Assembly: GCA_947311495.1 (NCBI GenBank)
Contig: CAMZLG010000008.1
Coordinates: 1 to 42,148 of the forward strand
DNA from: an uncultured Zetaproteobacteria bacterium
GTDB lineage: Bacteria > Pseudomonadota > Zetaproteobacteria > Mariprofundales > Mariprofundaceae
Length of the DNA: 42,148 nt
Direction of reading: 5' to 3'
The notes under the pieces were generated by a model that saw only the letters and a list, made by a program, of their open reading frames with translations, was not told where the DNA came from and ran no database searches. The stretch's first letter is position 1; each line of letters opens with the position of its first letter. A program made the position numbers and the translations under genes. Shown piece by piece: positions 28,924-33,640 of the stretch.

Positions 28924-29690
28924 TGGCTCAAGATGTTAACTTTGATGATTTAACCGAACATTTTAAAAAGCGAATTTATGGTAGTCATAAGGGTGCGATT
29001 CGCCTTGCTGTGTTGGAGCGCGATTTAAAGGCTGAAATTCCAAACTATGCGCAGGGTGGTTTAAGCGTGTTGGACATTGGTTCTGGTTTTGCTCAAATGG
29101 GTTTGAAGCTTGCTGCCCTTGGGCATGATGTGTGTATTAATGATATATCGCAAAACATGCTGGCAGTTGCCAAACAGCATGCACAAGAGCAAGGCTTAGC
29201 TGAACAAATCACTTGGCAACATGGTGCGTTTCAAAGTTTGCCGCCTAAGCCGTATGGTGTGGTGCTGTGTCATGCCGTATTGGAGTGGCTGGACAAACCA
29301 GAGGAGCTTTTGGATGTGTTATCCAAGTTTACGCACCAAAACAGTGTGGTTTCATTGATGTTTTATAATCAAGATGCACTTGTGTTGCACAACCTGATTC
29401 GCGGCAACTTCAATAAAATCAAAAATAACGACTTTAAGGGCATGAAAGGCGGCTTAACCCCGCAAAACCCGATTCAACCAGCGTGGGTTGAAGCCAAGCT
29501 TAATGATTTGGGTTTTGAAGTGAGCTACAAAAGCGGTATTCGTGTATTTAGTGATTATGTGGGTATCAAACGTGGTGGTAATGCTAGCGATGATGAAGTG
29601 TTAGCGATGGAACTTCAGTATTCCAATCAGCAGCCTTATCAACAGATGGGGCGGTATATTCATTTTATCTGTCGTGTAAAACAAACTTAA
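28923..29690 (+). CDS. cmoM: tRNA uridine-34 carboxymethoxy methyltransferase CmoM-like
   Basis: NFDDLTEHFKKRIYGSHKGAIRLAVLERDL, VLDIGSGFAQMGLKLA, CHAVLEWLDKPEELL, LMFYNQDALVLHNLIRGNF, C-terminal MGRYIHFICR match remembered E. coli CmoM organisation. Confidence 0.85.
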   Translation: MAQDVNFDDLTEHFKKRIYGSHKGAIRLAVLERDLKAEIPNYAQGGLSVLDIGSGFAQMGLKLAALGHDVCINDISQNMLAVAKQHAQEQGLAEQITWQHGAFQSLPPKPYGVVLCHAVLEWLDKPEELLDVLSKFTHQNSVVSLMFYNQDALVLHNLIRGNFNKIKNNDFKGMKGGLTPQNPIQPAWVEAKLNDLGFEVSYKSGIRVFSDYVGIKRGGNASDDEVLAMELQYSNQQPYQQMGRYIHFICRVKQT

Positions 29691-29712
29691 TATTATCTAT
29701 TGCTAATATAAT
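29689..29712 (+). promoter_or_regulatory. Putative operator 1 overlapping -10 TATAAT upstream of arsR-family gene
   Basis: AATATTATCTATTGCTAATATAAT; shares 18/19 bp with operator 2; TATAAT at 29707-29712. Confidence 0.65.
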
Positions 29713-29734
29713 AATTCATGGCTATCCTTCGGGT

Positions 29735-30046
29735 ATGGAAATGATACCGCAAGAACAAATACAAACCGCAAGCGAAGGTCTTAAAGCGATTGCCCACGAA
29801 GTGCGTTTATCCGTGCTTTGTCATTTGATGAATGGTCCGATGTGTGTTCATGATTTGATTGAAAAAACAGGCTCATCACAATCCAACTTATCCCAGCATT
29901 TATCCAAGATGCGAATGATGGGGATATTAAATAATGAGAAGAAGGGGCAGCAAGTGTATTATAGCATTGCCAACCCAGATTTTGAAAAGCTGCTTGAAGC
30001 ATTGCAAGGCATTTATTGCTCTGATGTTTGCGTGAAGCCTAAGTAA
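29735..30046 (+). CDS. ArsR-family HTH regulator, BigR/SqrR-like
   Basis: wHTH SSQSNLSQHLSKMRMMGILNNEKKGQQVYYSI; Cys29 and Cys95 in positions resembling the BigR/SqrR thiol pair. Confidence 0.85.
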   Translation: MEMIPQEQIQTASEGLKAIAHEVRLSVLCHLMNGPMCVHDLIEKTGSSQSNLSQHLSKMRMMGILNNEKKGQQVYYSIANPDFEKLLEALQGIYCSDVCVKPK

Positions 30047-30088
30047 TTACCAATTTATAAATAGATAAGATAAAAGAGAGGAAAGAAG

Positions 30089-30304
30089 ATGTCAGTAGAA
30101 CGTATTATTCATATTGTAGCAGGATTTTTCATTGTGTTATCCGTCGTGTTATCAGGCGCACCACTTGGTGAACCAACATGGTTGTGGTTCACACTTTTTG
30201 TGGGTGTGAATTTGTTTCAATCGGGTATCACGCAGTGGTGCTTGATGGGCATTATCTTGAAGAAGCTTGGGCTTAAATCTGAATCAGCTTGTAAAACCTG
30301 CTAA
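30089..30304 (+). CDS. DUF2892/YgaP-TM-like small membrane protein ending in CKTC
   Basis: Two TM helices; MSVERIIHIVAGFFIVLSVVLS; C-terminal CxxC. Confidence 0.75.
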   Translation: MSVERIIHIVAGFFIVLSVVLSGAPLGEPTWLWFTLFVGVNLFQSGITQWCLMGIILKKLGLKSESACKTC

Positions 30305-30306
30305 TC

Positions 30307-30702
30307 ATGGCATGGGTTCAAGAAAATATCGTAACGGTTCTCATCCTGCTGATTGTGGCATGGATGGTGTGGACAAAGGTGGTAAGACCAAAAATGTTAG
30401 GCATTAAAAAGATGACAGCAGGGGCTTACCCCGACTTTAAAGAAGAGCATAGCTTGGTGGATGTGCGCTCAACAGGCGAATGGAATGGCGGTCATCCTGC
30501 CAATGCGATTCATATTCCCCTCAATGAGTTTGAGCAAAAAATGAATAAAATACCCAAAGATAAACCGCTGATTTTGATTTGTGCATCAGGTATGCGCTCA
30601 TCCATGGCGGCAACCATGGCTGCAAAAGCTGGTTATCAAGATGTGTATAATTTTGCAGGTGGTTTTGGCAGTTGGTGTGCTGCACAGCTACCGCGCAAGT
30701 AA
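30307..30702 (+). CDS. Membrane-anchored rhodanese
   Basis: N-terminal TM; VDVRSTGEWNGGHPANAIHIPL; active loop CASGMRS. Confidence 0.88.
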   Translation: MAWVQENIVTVLILLIVAWMVWTKVVRPKMLGIKKMTAGAYPDFKEEHSLVDVRSTGEWNGGHPANAIHIPLNEFEQKMNKIPKDKPLILICASGMRSSMAATMAAKAGYQDVYNFAGGFGSWCAAQLPRK

Positions 30703-30713
30703 AAGGAGTGTTT

Positions 30714-31106
30714 ATGTTTAAATATGTCATGGTACTGATGGTTGGTCTTGGTTTGGTTGCGTGTGACAGTACGCCGCCTGAAGGTTCATCACTGGCAACA
30801 GTTGAGCAAGCGCATGAGGTTCTTCTCAAAGGGCAGAAAGCAGAACCATTTTTGTTTTTGGATGTGCGCACACCAGGTGAATACAAATCTGGGCATGTTC
30901 CAGGGGCTAAAAACATTCCCGTCCAAGCATTGGCGGAACATTTAGCTGAAGTACCTAAGGATAAAAAGGTGTTTGTATATTGTGAGTCAGGCGTTAGGTC
31001 TACGCGGGCAACACAAACACTTGTGGATGCAGGGTTTAAAAACATCATTAATATGAAGGCAAGTATGCGCGGTTGGCGTAATGCGGGTTTTGAAACTGAA
31101 CGATAA
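30714..31106 (+). CDS. Rhodanese lipoprotein
   Basis: AAAAGGAG RBS then ATG at 30714; lipobox LVAC; active loop CESGVRS. Confidence 0.87.
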   Translation: MFKYVMVLMVGLGLVACDSTPPEGSSLATVEQAHEVLLKGQKAEPFLFLDVRTPGEYKSGHVPGAKNIPVQALAEHLAEVPKDKKVFVYCESGVRSTRATQTLVDAGFKNIINMKASMRGWRNAGFETER

Positions 31107-31144
31107 AGTAAGAGTTATGACTTTATTATATTTGGATTGAACAT

Positions 31145-31171
31145 GAGCTGCTGCAAGGCAGCTCTTTTTTT
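31145..31171 (+). terminator. Rho-independent terminator of the arsR unit
   Basis: GAGCTGC-tgcaag-GCAGCTC followed by T7. Confidence 0.85.
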
Positions 31172-31196
31172 CTTAAAACCGTAAAACTAACGCGGT

Positions 31197-31234
31197 TATA
31201 AATTAGAATATTAGCTATTGCTAATTTATATAAT
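31197..31234 (+). promoter_or_regulatory. Putative operator 2 and -10 TATAAT upstream of second rhodanese unit
   Basis: Perfect ATTAGC-TATT-GCTAAT (31210-31225) nested in TATAAATTAG...CTAATTTATA (31197-31206/31221-31230); TATAAT 31229-31234. Confidence 0.68.
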
Positions 31235-31277
31235 AGAGTTAAGCTTCGCACTCAGTCACTTAAATAAGGAGCTATAA

Positions 31278-31589
31278 ATGGAAATTTCAACACCAGATTT
31301 TTATGAAAAAGTTAAAATGAAAGACTTCGACCATTGGGTTGATGTACGTACAGCAGAAGAGTTTGCAGCAGTTCGCGCTGACTCGGAGCACGTTAAGCAT
31401 CACCCGCTTGATCAAATTGTATCATTAGACTTGCCTAAAGACGCAGTGATTTATTTGTCGTGCCGTTCAGGTGCGCGTTCAGGGCAGGCGCAAGCATTTA
31501 TGTTGCAAAACGGATATACCAATGTAACCAATGTTGCAGGTGGTATTATGGCATGGGAAGCGGCAGGCTTTCCAACTACACAAGGATAA
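31278..31589 (+). CDS. Cytoplasmic single-domain rhodanese
   Basis: HWVDVRTAEEFAAVRAD; active loop CRSGARS; no signal peptide. Confidence 0.88.
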   Translation: MEISTPDFYEKVKMKDFDHWVDVRTAEEFAAVRADSEHVKHHPLDQIVSLDLPKDAVIYLSCRSGARSGQAQAFMLQNGYTNVTNVAGGIMAWEAAGFPTTQG

Positions 31590-31601
31590 GAGGAATAACC
31601 A

Positions 31602-32018
31602 ATGAAAAAACAACTACAAATCATCATTGCAGCAGCAATGTTAACATTCTCAGGGCAGGCTATTGCATGTGGTATGGGCGAAGTGACAGATGCGGGATAT
31701 GAAAACGCATCATTAGCCCACGCTTACAAACACTGGAGCCAAGGTAAACATACAAAAATACCATTTGTATTTGTTGATGTGCGCACGCCAGAAGAATTTA
31801 AAGCAGGTCACGTACCTGGTGCAGTAAATATTCCAGTTTCTGAAATTGGAGACCGTTTGAATGAAGTGCCTAAAGATAAACAAGTGTATGTGTATTGCCG
31901 TTCTGGTAAACGTGCTGCTAAAGCCTCAACCGTTTTGGCGAAAGCAGGGTTTAATGTGGAAAACATCCCAGAAAGTATGCAAGGTTGGAAAGCAGCGGGT
32001 TACCCAATCGCAAAATAA
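31602..32018 (+). CDS. Periplasmic rhodanese
   Basis: Sec signal MKKQLQIIIAAAMLTFSGQAIA; VDVRTPEEFKAGHVPGAVNIPV; active loop CRSGKRA. Confidence 0.88.
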   Translation: MKKQLQIIIAAAMLTFSGQAIACGMGEVTDAGYENASLAHAYKHWSQGKHTKIPFVFVDVRTPEEFKAGHVPGAVNIPVSEIGDRLNEVPKDKQVYVYCRSGKRAAKASTVLAKAGFNVENIPESMQGWKAAGYPIAK

Positions 32019-32022
32019 TCAC

Positions 32023-32056
32023 AAGGCAGCCTGCATCTCGTAGGCTGCCTTTTTTC
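32023..32056 (+). terminator. Rho-independent terminator/attenuator
   Basis: AAGGCAGCCT-loop-AGGCTGCCTT followed by T-tract. Confidence 0.8.
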
Positions 32057-32081: not shown

Positions 32082-32765
32082 ATGATTTTCAGACAGTTAT
32101 TTGACGAAGCAACATGGACTTATACTTATATTGTAGCCGATGAAACAACAAAAGAAGCTTTGATTATTGATGCTGTGCTTGAAAAAGTAGAGCGCGACCT
32201 ACTGTTAATAAAAGAGCTTGGGTTAACGTTGAAATATGCTGTGGACACCCATGTTCATGCGGATCATACGACGGGTGCAGGCTTGTTGCGTGAGCGCACG
32301 GGTTGTCAAACAGGTGTTGCAGCTTCTGAAGGTGTATCATGTGCTGATATGGCTTTGAAAGAGGGTGACAGCCTTCAATTTGGTGAGTATGCACTTCAGG
32401 TTTTAGAAACACCTGGGCATACATCAGGCTGTCTAAGCTTTGTTTGCGAAGATAAAGTGTTTACAGGTGATGCCTTGTTTATCCGTGGCTGTGGTCGCAC
32501 AGACTTTCAAGCAGGTGACGCAGACACACTATATACTTCAATCACAGAGAAGTTATTTATACTTTCTGATGAAACCACTGTTTATCCAGGGCATGACTAT
32601 AAGGGTATGATGCTTTCCACCATTGCGGAGGAAAAAACGCACAATCCGAGAGTGAACTTGGGTAGAGAAGGGTTTGTGGATTTGATGAACAACCTTAATC
32701 TAGCCATGCCCAAACGTATTCACGAAGCCGTGCCTGCCAATCAAAAGTGTGGGTTAGATACTTAA
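32082..32765 (+). CDS. ETHE1-like persulfide dioxygenase (metallo-beta-lactamase fold)
   Basis: DTHVHADHTTGAGLLRE, ETPGHTSGCLSF, CGRTDFQAGDADTLY, VYPGHDYKG. Confidence 0.88.
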   Translation: MIFRQLFDEATWTYTYIVADETTKEALIIDAVLEKVERDLLLIKELGLTLKYAVDTHVHADHTTGAGLLRERTGCQTGVAASEGVSCADMALKEGDSLQFGEYALQVLETPGHTSGCLSFVCEDKVFTGDALFIRGCGRTDFQAGDADTLYTSITEKLFILSDETTVYPGHDYKGMMLSTIAEEKTHNPRVNLGREGFVDLMNNLNLAMPKRIHEAVPANQKCGLDT

Positions 32766-32772
32766 ACAAGTC

Positions 32773-32797
32773 AAAGCCTCTTTCGGGAGGCTTTTTC
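32773..32797 (+). terminator. Rho-independent terminator/attenuator
   Basis: AAGCCTC-tttcgg-GAGGCTT followed by T-tract. Confidence 0.75.
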
Positions 32798-32842
32798 AGT
32801 GGCAACTTTTTTATGAAACAAGCAGGTCAAGGAGTTGAATAA

Positions 32843-33640
32843 GTGGAAATCATGATGGTGATGGGTTTAATAAGTGCGGTATTGATGGGCATAACACTGG
32901 GTGTGTTTGGCGCGGGTGGTTCGATTCTTACCGTACCCATTCTTGTGTTTCTCATGGGTGTATCTGCATCTGAAGCCACGGCATATTCATTGTTTATTGT
33001 TGGTGTGACAGCCGTGTTTGGCGCATACACTTACTACAAACAAGACCTAATTCAATTTAGAATTGGTTTTGTGTTTGCCATACCTGCTTTTGTCGGCGTT
33101 TATGCGGTTCGTCTATTCCTTATGCCAGCTCTGCCTGAGCATATTGCAAGTATTGGCAGTTATGACTTGAGCAAAGATGCCTTGGTGCTGATTGTTTTTT
33201 CACTCATTATGATTATGGCGGCGTATGCCATGATTAAACCATCTAAAGTTCAAACCTCTGATGAACCCAAAGCATTAAACTATCCTTTGATTGCGATTGA
33301 AGGACTTATTGTCGGCGCAGTCACAGGTTTTGTCGGTGCTGGCGGTGGTTTCTTGATTATCCCTGCTTTGGTGATTCTTGCTGGCTTGAATATGAAACAA
33401 GCTGTGGGCACATCATTGATGATTATTGCCTTTAAATCATTATTGGGTTTTGCGGGTGATATTCAGGCTGGTTTGGTGGTAGACTGGATTTTATTGTTTG
33501 AAATTGTTGGGTTATCCATCATTGGTGTGTTGATTGGTGAGCGCGTTGCTCGAAAAGTGGATGGCAACAAGCTTAAACCTGCATTTGGCTATTTTGTCTT
33601 ACTGATGGGGCTAGCCATTTTAGTGAGAGAAGTGGTGTGA
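32843..33640 (+). CDS. TauE/SafE sulfite exporter-like permease
   Basis: GVFGAGGSILTVPILVFLMGVSASEATAYSL and GFVGAGGGFLIIPALVILAGLNMKQAVGTSL repeat motifs. Confidence 0.87.
   Translation: MEIMMVMGLISAVLMGITLGVFGAGGSILTVPILVFLMGVSASEATAYSLFIVGVTAVFGAYTYYKQDLIQFRIGFVFAIPAFVGVYAVRLFLMPALPEHIASIGSYDLSKDALVLIVFSLIMIMAAYAMIKPSKVQTSDEPKALNYPLIAIEGLIVGAVTGFVGAGGGFLIIPALVILAGLNMKQAVGTSLMIIAFKSLLGFAGDIQAGLVVDWILLFEIVGLSIIGVLIGERVARKVDGNKLKPAFGYFVLLMGLAILVREVV

Follow-up and report, generated by a model that had tools for sequence, protein, structure and literature searches.

Genes and transcription units of the locus

The window, i.e. the whole stretch of 42,148 nucleotides analysed (contig CAMZLG010000008.1 of assembly GCA_947311495.1, an uncultured Zetaproteobacteria bacterium of a Ghiorsea-like genus), encodes an ArsR-family regulator followed by two sets of genes related to sulfur transfer. 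The genes and terminators of these two units are as follows:

29735..30046, + strand: ArsR-family regulator of 103 aa, with cysteines C29, C37, C95 and C99 (family models, alignments)
30089..30304, + strand: YgaP-like transmembrane domain protein (PF11127; family model)
30307..30702, + strand: rhodanese A, membrane-anchored (family model)
30714..31106, + strand: rhodanese B, with an assumed ATG start at 30714 (sequence and family model)
31145..31164, + strand: intrinsic terminator separating units 1 and 2 (terminator scan)
31278..31589, + strand: rhodanese C, preceded by a Shine-Dalgarno-like AAGGAG (sequence and family model)
31602..32018, + strand: rhodanese D, whose N-terminus looks by eye like a signal peptide (family model)
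32023..32051, + strand: probable terminator at the end of unit 2, with arms AAGGCAGCCT/AGGCTGCCTT and a T run after them (hairpin in sequence)

A terminator between the units had been proposed in the first-pass annotation, and our scan recovers it. The second unit probably ends at the hairpin at 32023-32051, before a metallo-beta-lactamase-fold gene. The region 32082-33637 encodes this beta-lactamase-fold protein, which matches the sulfur dioxygenase part of Blh, and then a TauE exporter, each gene being flanked by terminator-like hairpins. Because the hairpin at 32023-32051 precedes both genes, their control from the palindrome upstream of unit 2 (site 2, see below) is uncertain.

The regulator belongs to the ArsR/SmtB family (PF01022, HTH_5, 50.8 bits for a cut-off of 22; NF033788, 86.6 bits for a cut-off of 55). 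Its named relatives at 92-98% identity come from Ghiorsea or from Zetaproteobacteria/Mariprofundaceae assemblies. The closest solved structures by profile are HlyU (the best match), YgaV, SqrR, BigR, and NolR. The score with the BigR equivalog model NF040642 is far below its cut-off (65 versus 155 bits), and the protein should thus not be called BigR. Two of its cysteines, C29 (helix 2, in LC) and C95 (near the C-terminus, in YC), align with those of the PDB relatives; according to PMC12423496, these are the positions that form the sulfur bridge in the BigR/SqrR/YgaV/HlyU group. C29, C37, and C95 are conserved in all 59 orthologs and C99 in 55 of them, such that C37 and C99 form an extra pair outside the known one. 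By simple spacing, C37 is not equivalent to Cys63, the third cysteine of H. denitrificans sHdrR, because it lies 8 residues after the first cysteine of the pair and not 13 (PMC12423496). As this extra invariant cysteine is not in the known pair, the inducer could differ. Judging from its sequence, the regulator is most likely a sulfane-sulfur-relieved repressor. ArsR homologs with an in-frame stop, either decayed copies or assembly errors, are found at L041/L071 (G004) and in G044:C2.

Two near-identical palindromes precede the two units

The first-pass annotation had described nearly identical palindromic operators upstream of the two units. A scan re-located both 19-mers where they had been placed: site 1, AATATTATCTATTGCTAAT, at 29689-29707 and site 2, AATATTAGCTATTGCTAAT, at 31207-31225, both on the + strand and identical at 18 of 19 positions. 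As described, site 2 carries the core ATTAGC-TATT-GCTAAT as an inverted repeat without mismatch, and site 1 carries it with a single mismatch. The 10-bp perfect arms said to nest site 2 are also real (TATAAATTAG/CTAATTTATA, at 31197-31206 and 31221-31230). They contribute one extra half site, ATTAG, which is kept in a subclade only (present in seven related genomes, including that of the window, and missing from five others). The palindromic elements are thus:

29692..29707, + strand: putative operator 1, ATTAT-CTATTG-CTAAT, a 5-6-5 inverted repeat (conserved 5' of ArsR orthologs in the order)
31202..31206, + strand: extra half site ATTAG, 8 bp 5' of the left half of operator 2 (subclade only)
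31210..31225, + strand: putative operator 2, ATTAG-CTATTG-CTAAT, a perfect 5-6-5 repeat that can also be read as 6-4-6 (motif scans and relatives)

The window contains two matches to the 19-mer motif with at most three mismatches, for 0.05 expected. Exact matches to the 16-bp core, taken as a degenerate motif, are found only at sites 1 and 2 in an assembly that is 87.6% complete (1.85 Mb in 162 contigs) and that may lack further operator sites. The next-best genomic match has two mismatches, once the reverse-strand reading of site 2 is set aside. These whole-genome scans were pattern searches rather than full weight-matrix scans, and many of the genomes compared are incomplete. A loose version of the palindrome, TTAGCNNNNGCTAA with two mismatches, was uninformative (921 matches versus 890 in the control).

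The palindrome accompanies arsR across the order

Orthologs of the regulator with at least 50% identity were found in most of the 78 genomes of the order, which allowed phylogenetic footprinting of 58 orthologous arsR upstream regions from this order of Zetaproteobacteria; here and below, counts refer to species-level representatives and not to independent events. At least 8 of the 10 positions of the ATTAG-N6-CTAAT core are matched in 47 of the 58 regions, for 5.6 in shuffled sequence, and a gap of 6 is the clear maximum among gaps of 0-12 for a 5-bp inverted repeat. Relative to the arsR start codon, the best core is found at -43/-44 in 41 loci; in 12 others, among them representatives of genus g6 and of the deepest family, it is found at -25 to -28, and four of these 12 also carry a partly conserved upstream copy. 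That the palindrome is kept at shifted promoter positions argues for a protein site. Site 2 is conserved in all 12 Ghiorsea genomes that have the region, and in one of them (L057) it is a perfect 14-4-14 palindrome. The association of the palindrome with ArsR orthologs across the order supports the earlier proposal that these are operators and that the linked ArsR protein is their likely ligand, as do further copies in the genus, which precede members of the ancestral arsR operon (see below).

Some loci may carry more than one palindrome: at L066, L074, L085, and L088, two abutting 5-6-5 palindromes appear to lie 5' of arsR, over the -35 and towards the -10, an arrangement that suggests two dimers.

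The right half site coincides with a predicted -35 element

To place the -10 element of arsR, we relied solely on resemblance to TATAAT, with A as second and T as sixth base, within the 21 bases that precede the gene. Its end falls 6-7 bp before the ATG in 52 of the 58 loci (around 3 per position in shuffles), and the best TTGACA-like hexamer lies 17 bp 5' of it in 43 (11.6 in shuffles). The distance of 6-7 bp is also maintained in seven genomes whose ArsR has its start three or four codons further upstream. A search of the 20 bases preceding arsR for the Shine-Dalgarno-like strings GGAG, GAGG, and AGGA found none in the 58 loci. The proximity of the start codon to the predicted -10, its maintenance in the genomes with an earlier start, and the lack of such a Shine-Dalgarno-like sequence suggest that the arsR mRNA is probably leaderless. 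We found no match to a known RNA element of Rfam in the leaders.

The resulting promoter layout, TTGnTA-N16/17-TAnnnT-TCG, is conserved, and the right half site of the operator is the predicted -35. It takes the form TTGnTA-N17-TATnnT at site 1, 6-7 bp before the ATG, and TTGCTA-N16-TAnnnT in 11 of 12 genomes at site 2 (N17 in the twelfth), usually followed by TCG or TTGC. The predicted elements in the window are the following:

29700..29705, + strand: -35 TTGCTA for arsR, overlapping the right half of operator 1 (spacer of 17 in 43/58 loci)
29723..29728, + strand: -10 TATCCT, then TCG (end 6-7 bp before the ATG in 52/58 loci)
31218..31223, + strand: -35 TTGCTA of the second promoter (alignment of relatives at site 2)
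31240..31245, + strand: -10 TAAGCT, spacer of 16, then TCG (position and TAnnnT pattern in 11/12 genomes)

The -10 predicted at site 2 is weak in the window (3/6). Sites 1 and 2 are the only places in the window where core, TTG, spaced -10, and TCG come together, and this composite is absent from 60 random windows. The -10 role had previously been given to two TATAAT strings. These are present, at 29707-29712 and 31228-31233, but comparative spacing does not support this role: the layout kept at site 1 places TATnnT near the ATG, and at site 2 the relatives have sequences such as TTTAAAAAGC in place of TATAAT while keeping TTGCTA-N16-TAnnnT.

A third unit and the putative split of an ancestral operon

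We searched the genus with the refined motif to find further copies of the operator. A third site, AAATTAGAACTTGCTAATATAA, recurs in the relatives and lies outside the window, on another contig of the same genome (G000:C153:12748-12769, - strand). It precedes a TolC-type gene, followed by genes for a membrane-fusion protein (MFP) and an RND permease. Sequence upstream of tolC is available for 12 Ghiorsea genomes, and all 12 have the site, mostly in the layout TTGCTA-N16-TATATT/TATACT-TCG. The operator is thus shared as proposed for a two-promoter regulon, but the promoters number three: in each, that of arsR included, the right half site lies on the predicted -35. Two other candidates were discarded. 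A match at G000:C149:4053-4068 (ATTAGCATATGCTAAT) lies past an unrelated RND gene, on its 3' side, and a palindrome 5' of a thioredoxin-like gene (G021:C10:22494-22515, L121) is absent at that place from the match lists of other genomes.

Outside the Ghiorsea-like genus, ygaP lies around 6-7 kb after arsR in 29 loci. In L064 this gap is filled by a tolC-MFP-RND cassette, whose gene order was read fully in that locus and inferred elsewhere from the arsR-ygaP spacing. In the Ghiorsea group, ygaP is less than 370 bp after arsR in 14 out of 14 loci. The RND permease is 75% identical to the L064 copy, whereas the next-best permease of the genome is 26% identical, which indicates that the cassettes are orthologous. 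In other Mariprofundaceae, the arrangement arsR-tolC-MFP-RND-ygaP is one unit behind one operator. Judging from gene order, the simplest history would be that one ancestral operon behind one operator split into three units, each with a copy of the operator.

A sulfur-relieved regulon is the probable reading

We consider it probable that the ATTAG-N6-CTAAT palindromes are operators of the linked ArsR homodimer, of the BigR/SqrR/YgaV/HlyU type, and that they define a three-unit sulfur-relieved regulon that resulted from the split of an operon. The dimer, with its cysteines reduced, would bind over the -35 (TTGCTA) of the three promoters and sterically block RNA polymerase at arsR-ygaP-rhoA-rhoB, rhoC-rhoD, and tolC-MFP-RND (on the other contig). 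Persulfide or polysulfide would link C29 to C95 and make the dimer leave DNA, upon which all three units would be transcribed, including that of arsR itself (autoregulation). The regulon would then handle excess sulfane sulfur in two ways, with rhodaneses transferring it and the RND pump exporting it. If so, marine iron oxidisers gain a testable sulfur-stress regulon, with one regulator, one operator, and three predicted units. The shared operators would tie an RND efflux pump to sulfane-sulfur sensing beyond gene proximity, in an example of operon splitting where every piece retains the same switch.

A more ambitious version, which we hold tentatively, is that the sulfur sensor carries two pairs of cysteines, C29/C95 and C37/C99, throughout the Zetaproteobacteria, that its operator has moved by around 16 bp along the promoter between clades, and that copies of this operator were kept at the three-way split of the operon. 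If true, the splitting of an operon whose pieces stayed co-regulated could be traced here, possibly together with a two-bridge sensing chemistry.

The linked ArsR protein could also bind the palindromes but sense something other than sulfane sulfur, such as a metal, a metalloid, or an organic toxicant that the RND pump expels. It has four near-invariant cysteines instead of two, and C37 may fall within the stretch that bears ligands in some metal-sensing ArsR proteins. The regulon includes an RND efflux operon, and the adaptor of this pump is partly similar to CzcB-type models. Yet, the adaptor falls below the CzcB cut-off, C29 and C95 match the sulfur-sensing cysteines in the alignment, and the remaining genes of the predicted regulon are all sulfur genes of the rhodanese or YgaP type. 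Furthermore, RND pumps have already been reported near sulfane-sulfur ArsR regulators (PMC12423496). We thus regard a metal or toxicant signal as unlikely. It is still less likely that the conserved blocks are mere promoter elements (-35, -10) or the site of a different, unlinked regulator. In favour of this reading, most genomes have the -35 on the right half site, the TCG after the -10 may be a class-wide promoter feature, and some Mariprofundus-like genomes carry a similar site before a cytochrome b561 operon that has no evident link to sulfur. Against it, the left arm is well conserved despite its position upstream of the -35, the palindrome is displaced by around 16 bp in other clades, where it lies in the spacer and not on the -35, and the copies within Ghiorsea follow the members of the ancestral arsR operon.

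Comparison with known regulators of the group

The regulon that we favour, sulfur-relieved and controlled by the linked ArsR protein, resembles several characterised systems. BigR of Xylella and Agrobacterium is an ArsR-fold repressor with a two-cysteine switch, whose operator lies on the -10 region of the core promoter and whose targets are sulfur dioxygenase genes and genes of the rhodanese and TauE types (PMC5823870). Our system shares the fold, the cysteine pair, an operator overlapping the core promoter, and the rhodanese-type genes, and has a protein like the dioxygenase part of Blh and TauE encoded just downstream. However, the operator is on the -35 and not on the -10, and there are three promoters, an RND efflux operon, and an extra cysteine pair. 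In E. coli, YgaV is a self-repressing ArsR protein that binds over its own RNA polymerase site (PMC9774250). There too an ArsR gene precedes a YgaP-type transmembrane/rhodanese gene, whereas here the YgaP-like membrane and rhodanese parts are separate genes and the operator is found on two more units. The mode of repression that we propose would thus be already known, since BigR acts by blocking a -10 region and YgaV by blocking the polymerase site of its own gene.

SqrR of Rhodobacter is of the same subfamily and has the same cysteine pair by alignment. Its operator is ATTC-N8-GAAT (quoted in PMC9774250), whereas the sites described here read ATTAG-N6-CTAAT. HlyU of Vibrio, the best match among solved structures, binds a site that is likewise an AT-rich imperfect palindrome (TAATTCAGACTAAATTA; PMC4330345). 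Yet, HlyU is an activator that acts from an upstream site, whereas the overlap of our site with the promoter implies repression. Finally, PMC12423496 describes SoxR and sHdrR of Hyphomicrobium as sulfane-sulfur-responsive ArsR repressors with multi-promoter regulons and lists RND, TauE, and rhodanese neighbours for regulators of this kind. Our regulon is similar in these respects, but SoxR and sHdrR are described there as controlling thiosulfate oxidation.

Other recurrent sites were observed elsewhere in the order. The site TATTAATGNTTGATAATATAAT recurs in L172-L178, preceded in several of these genomes by TTAATTGACAATGAAAACT, and in that orientation no gene clearly follows it. In seven Mariprofundus-like genomes (L165-L171) and in L179, a cytochrome b561 gene is preceded by a nearly exact operator copy, often with a TTGATA-spaced TAnnnT-TCG layout. 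Next to this gene in L170 come genes for a protein resembling sulfatase-modifying factors and then for a glycogen phosphorylase. The cytochrome b561 site is possibly a clade-specific addition to the regulon.
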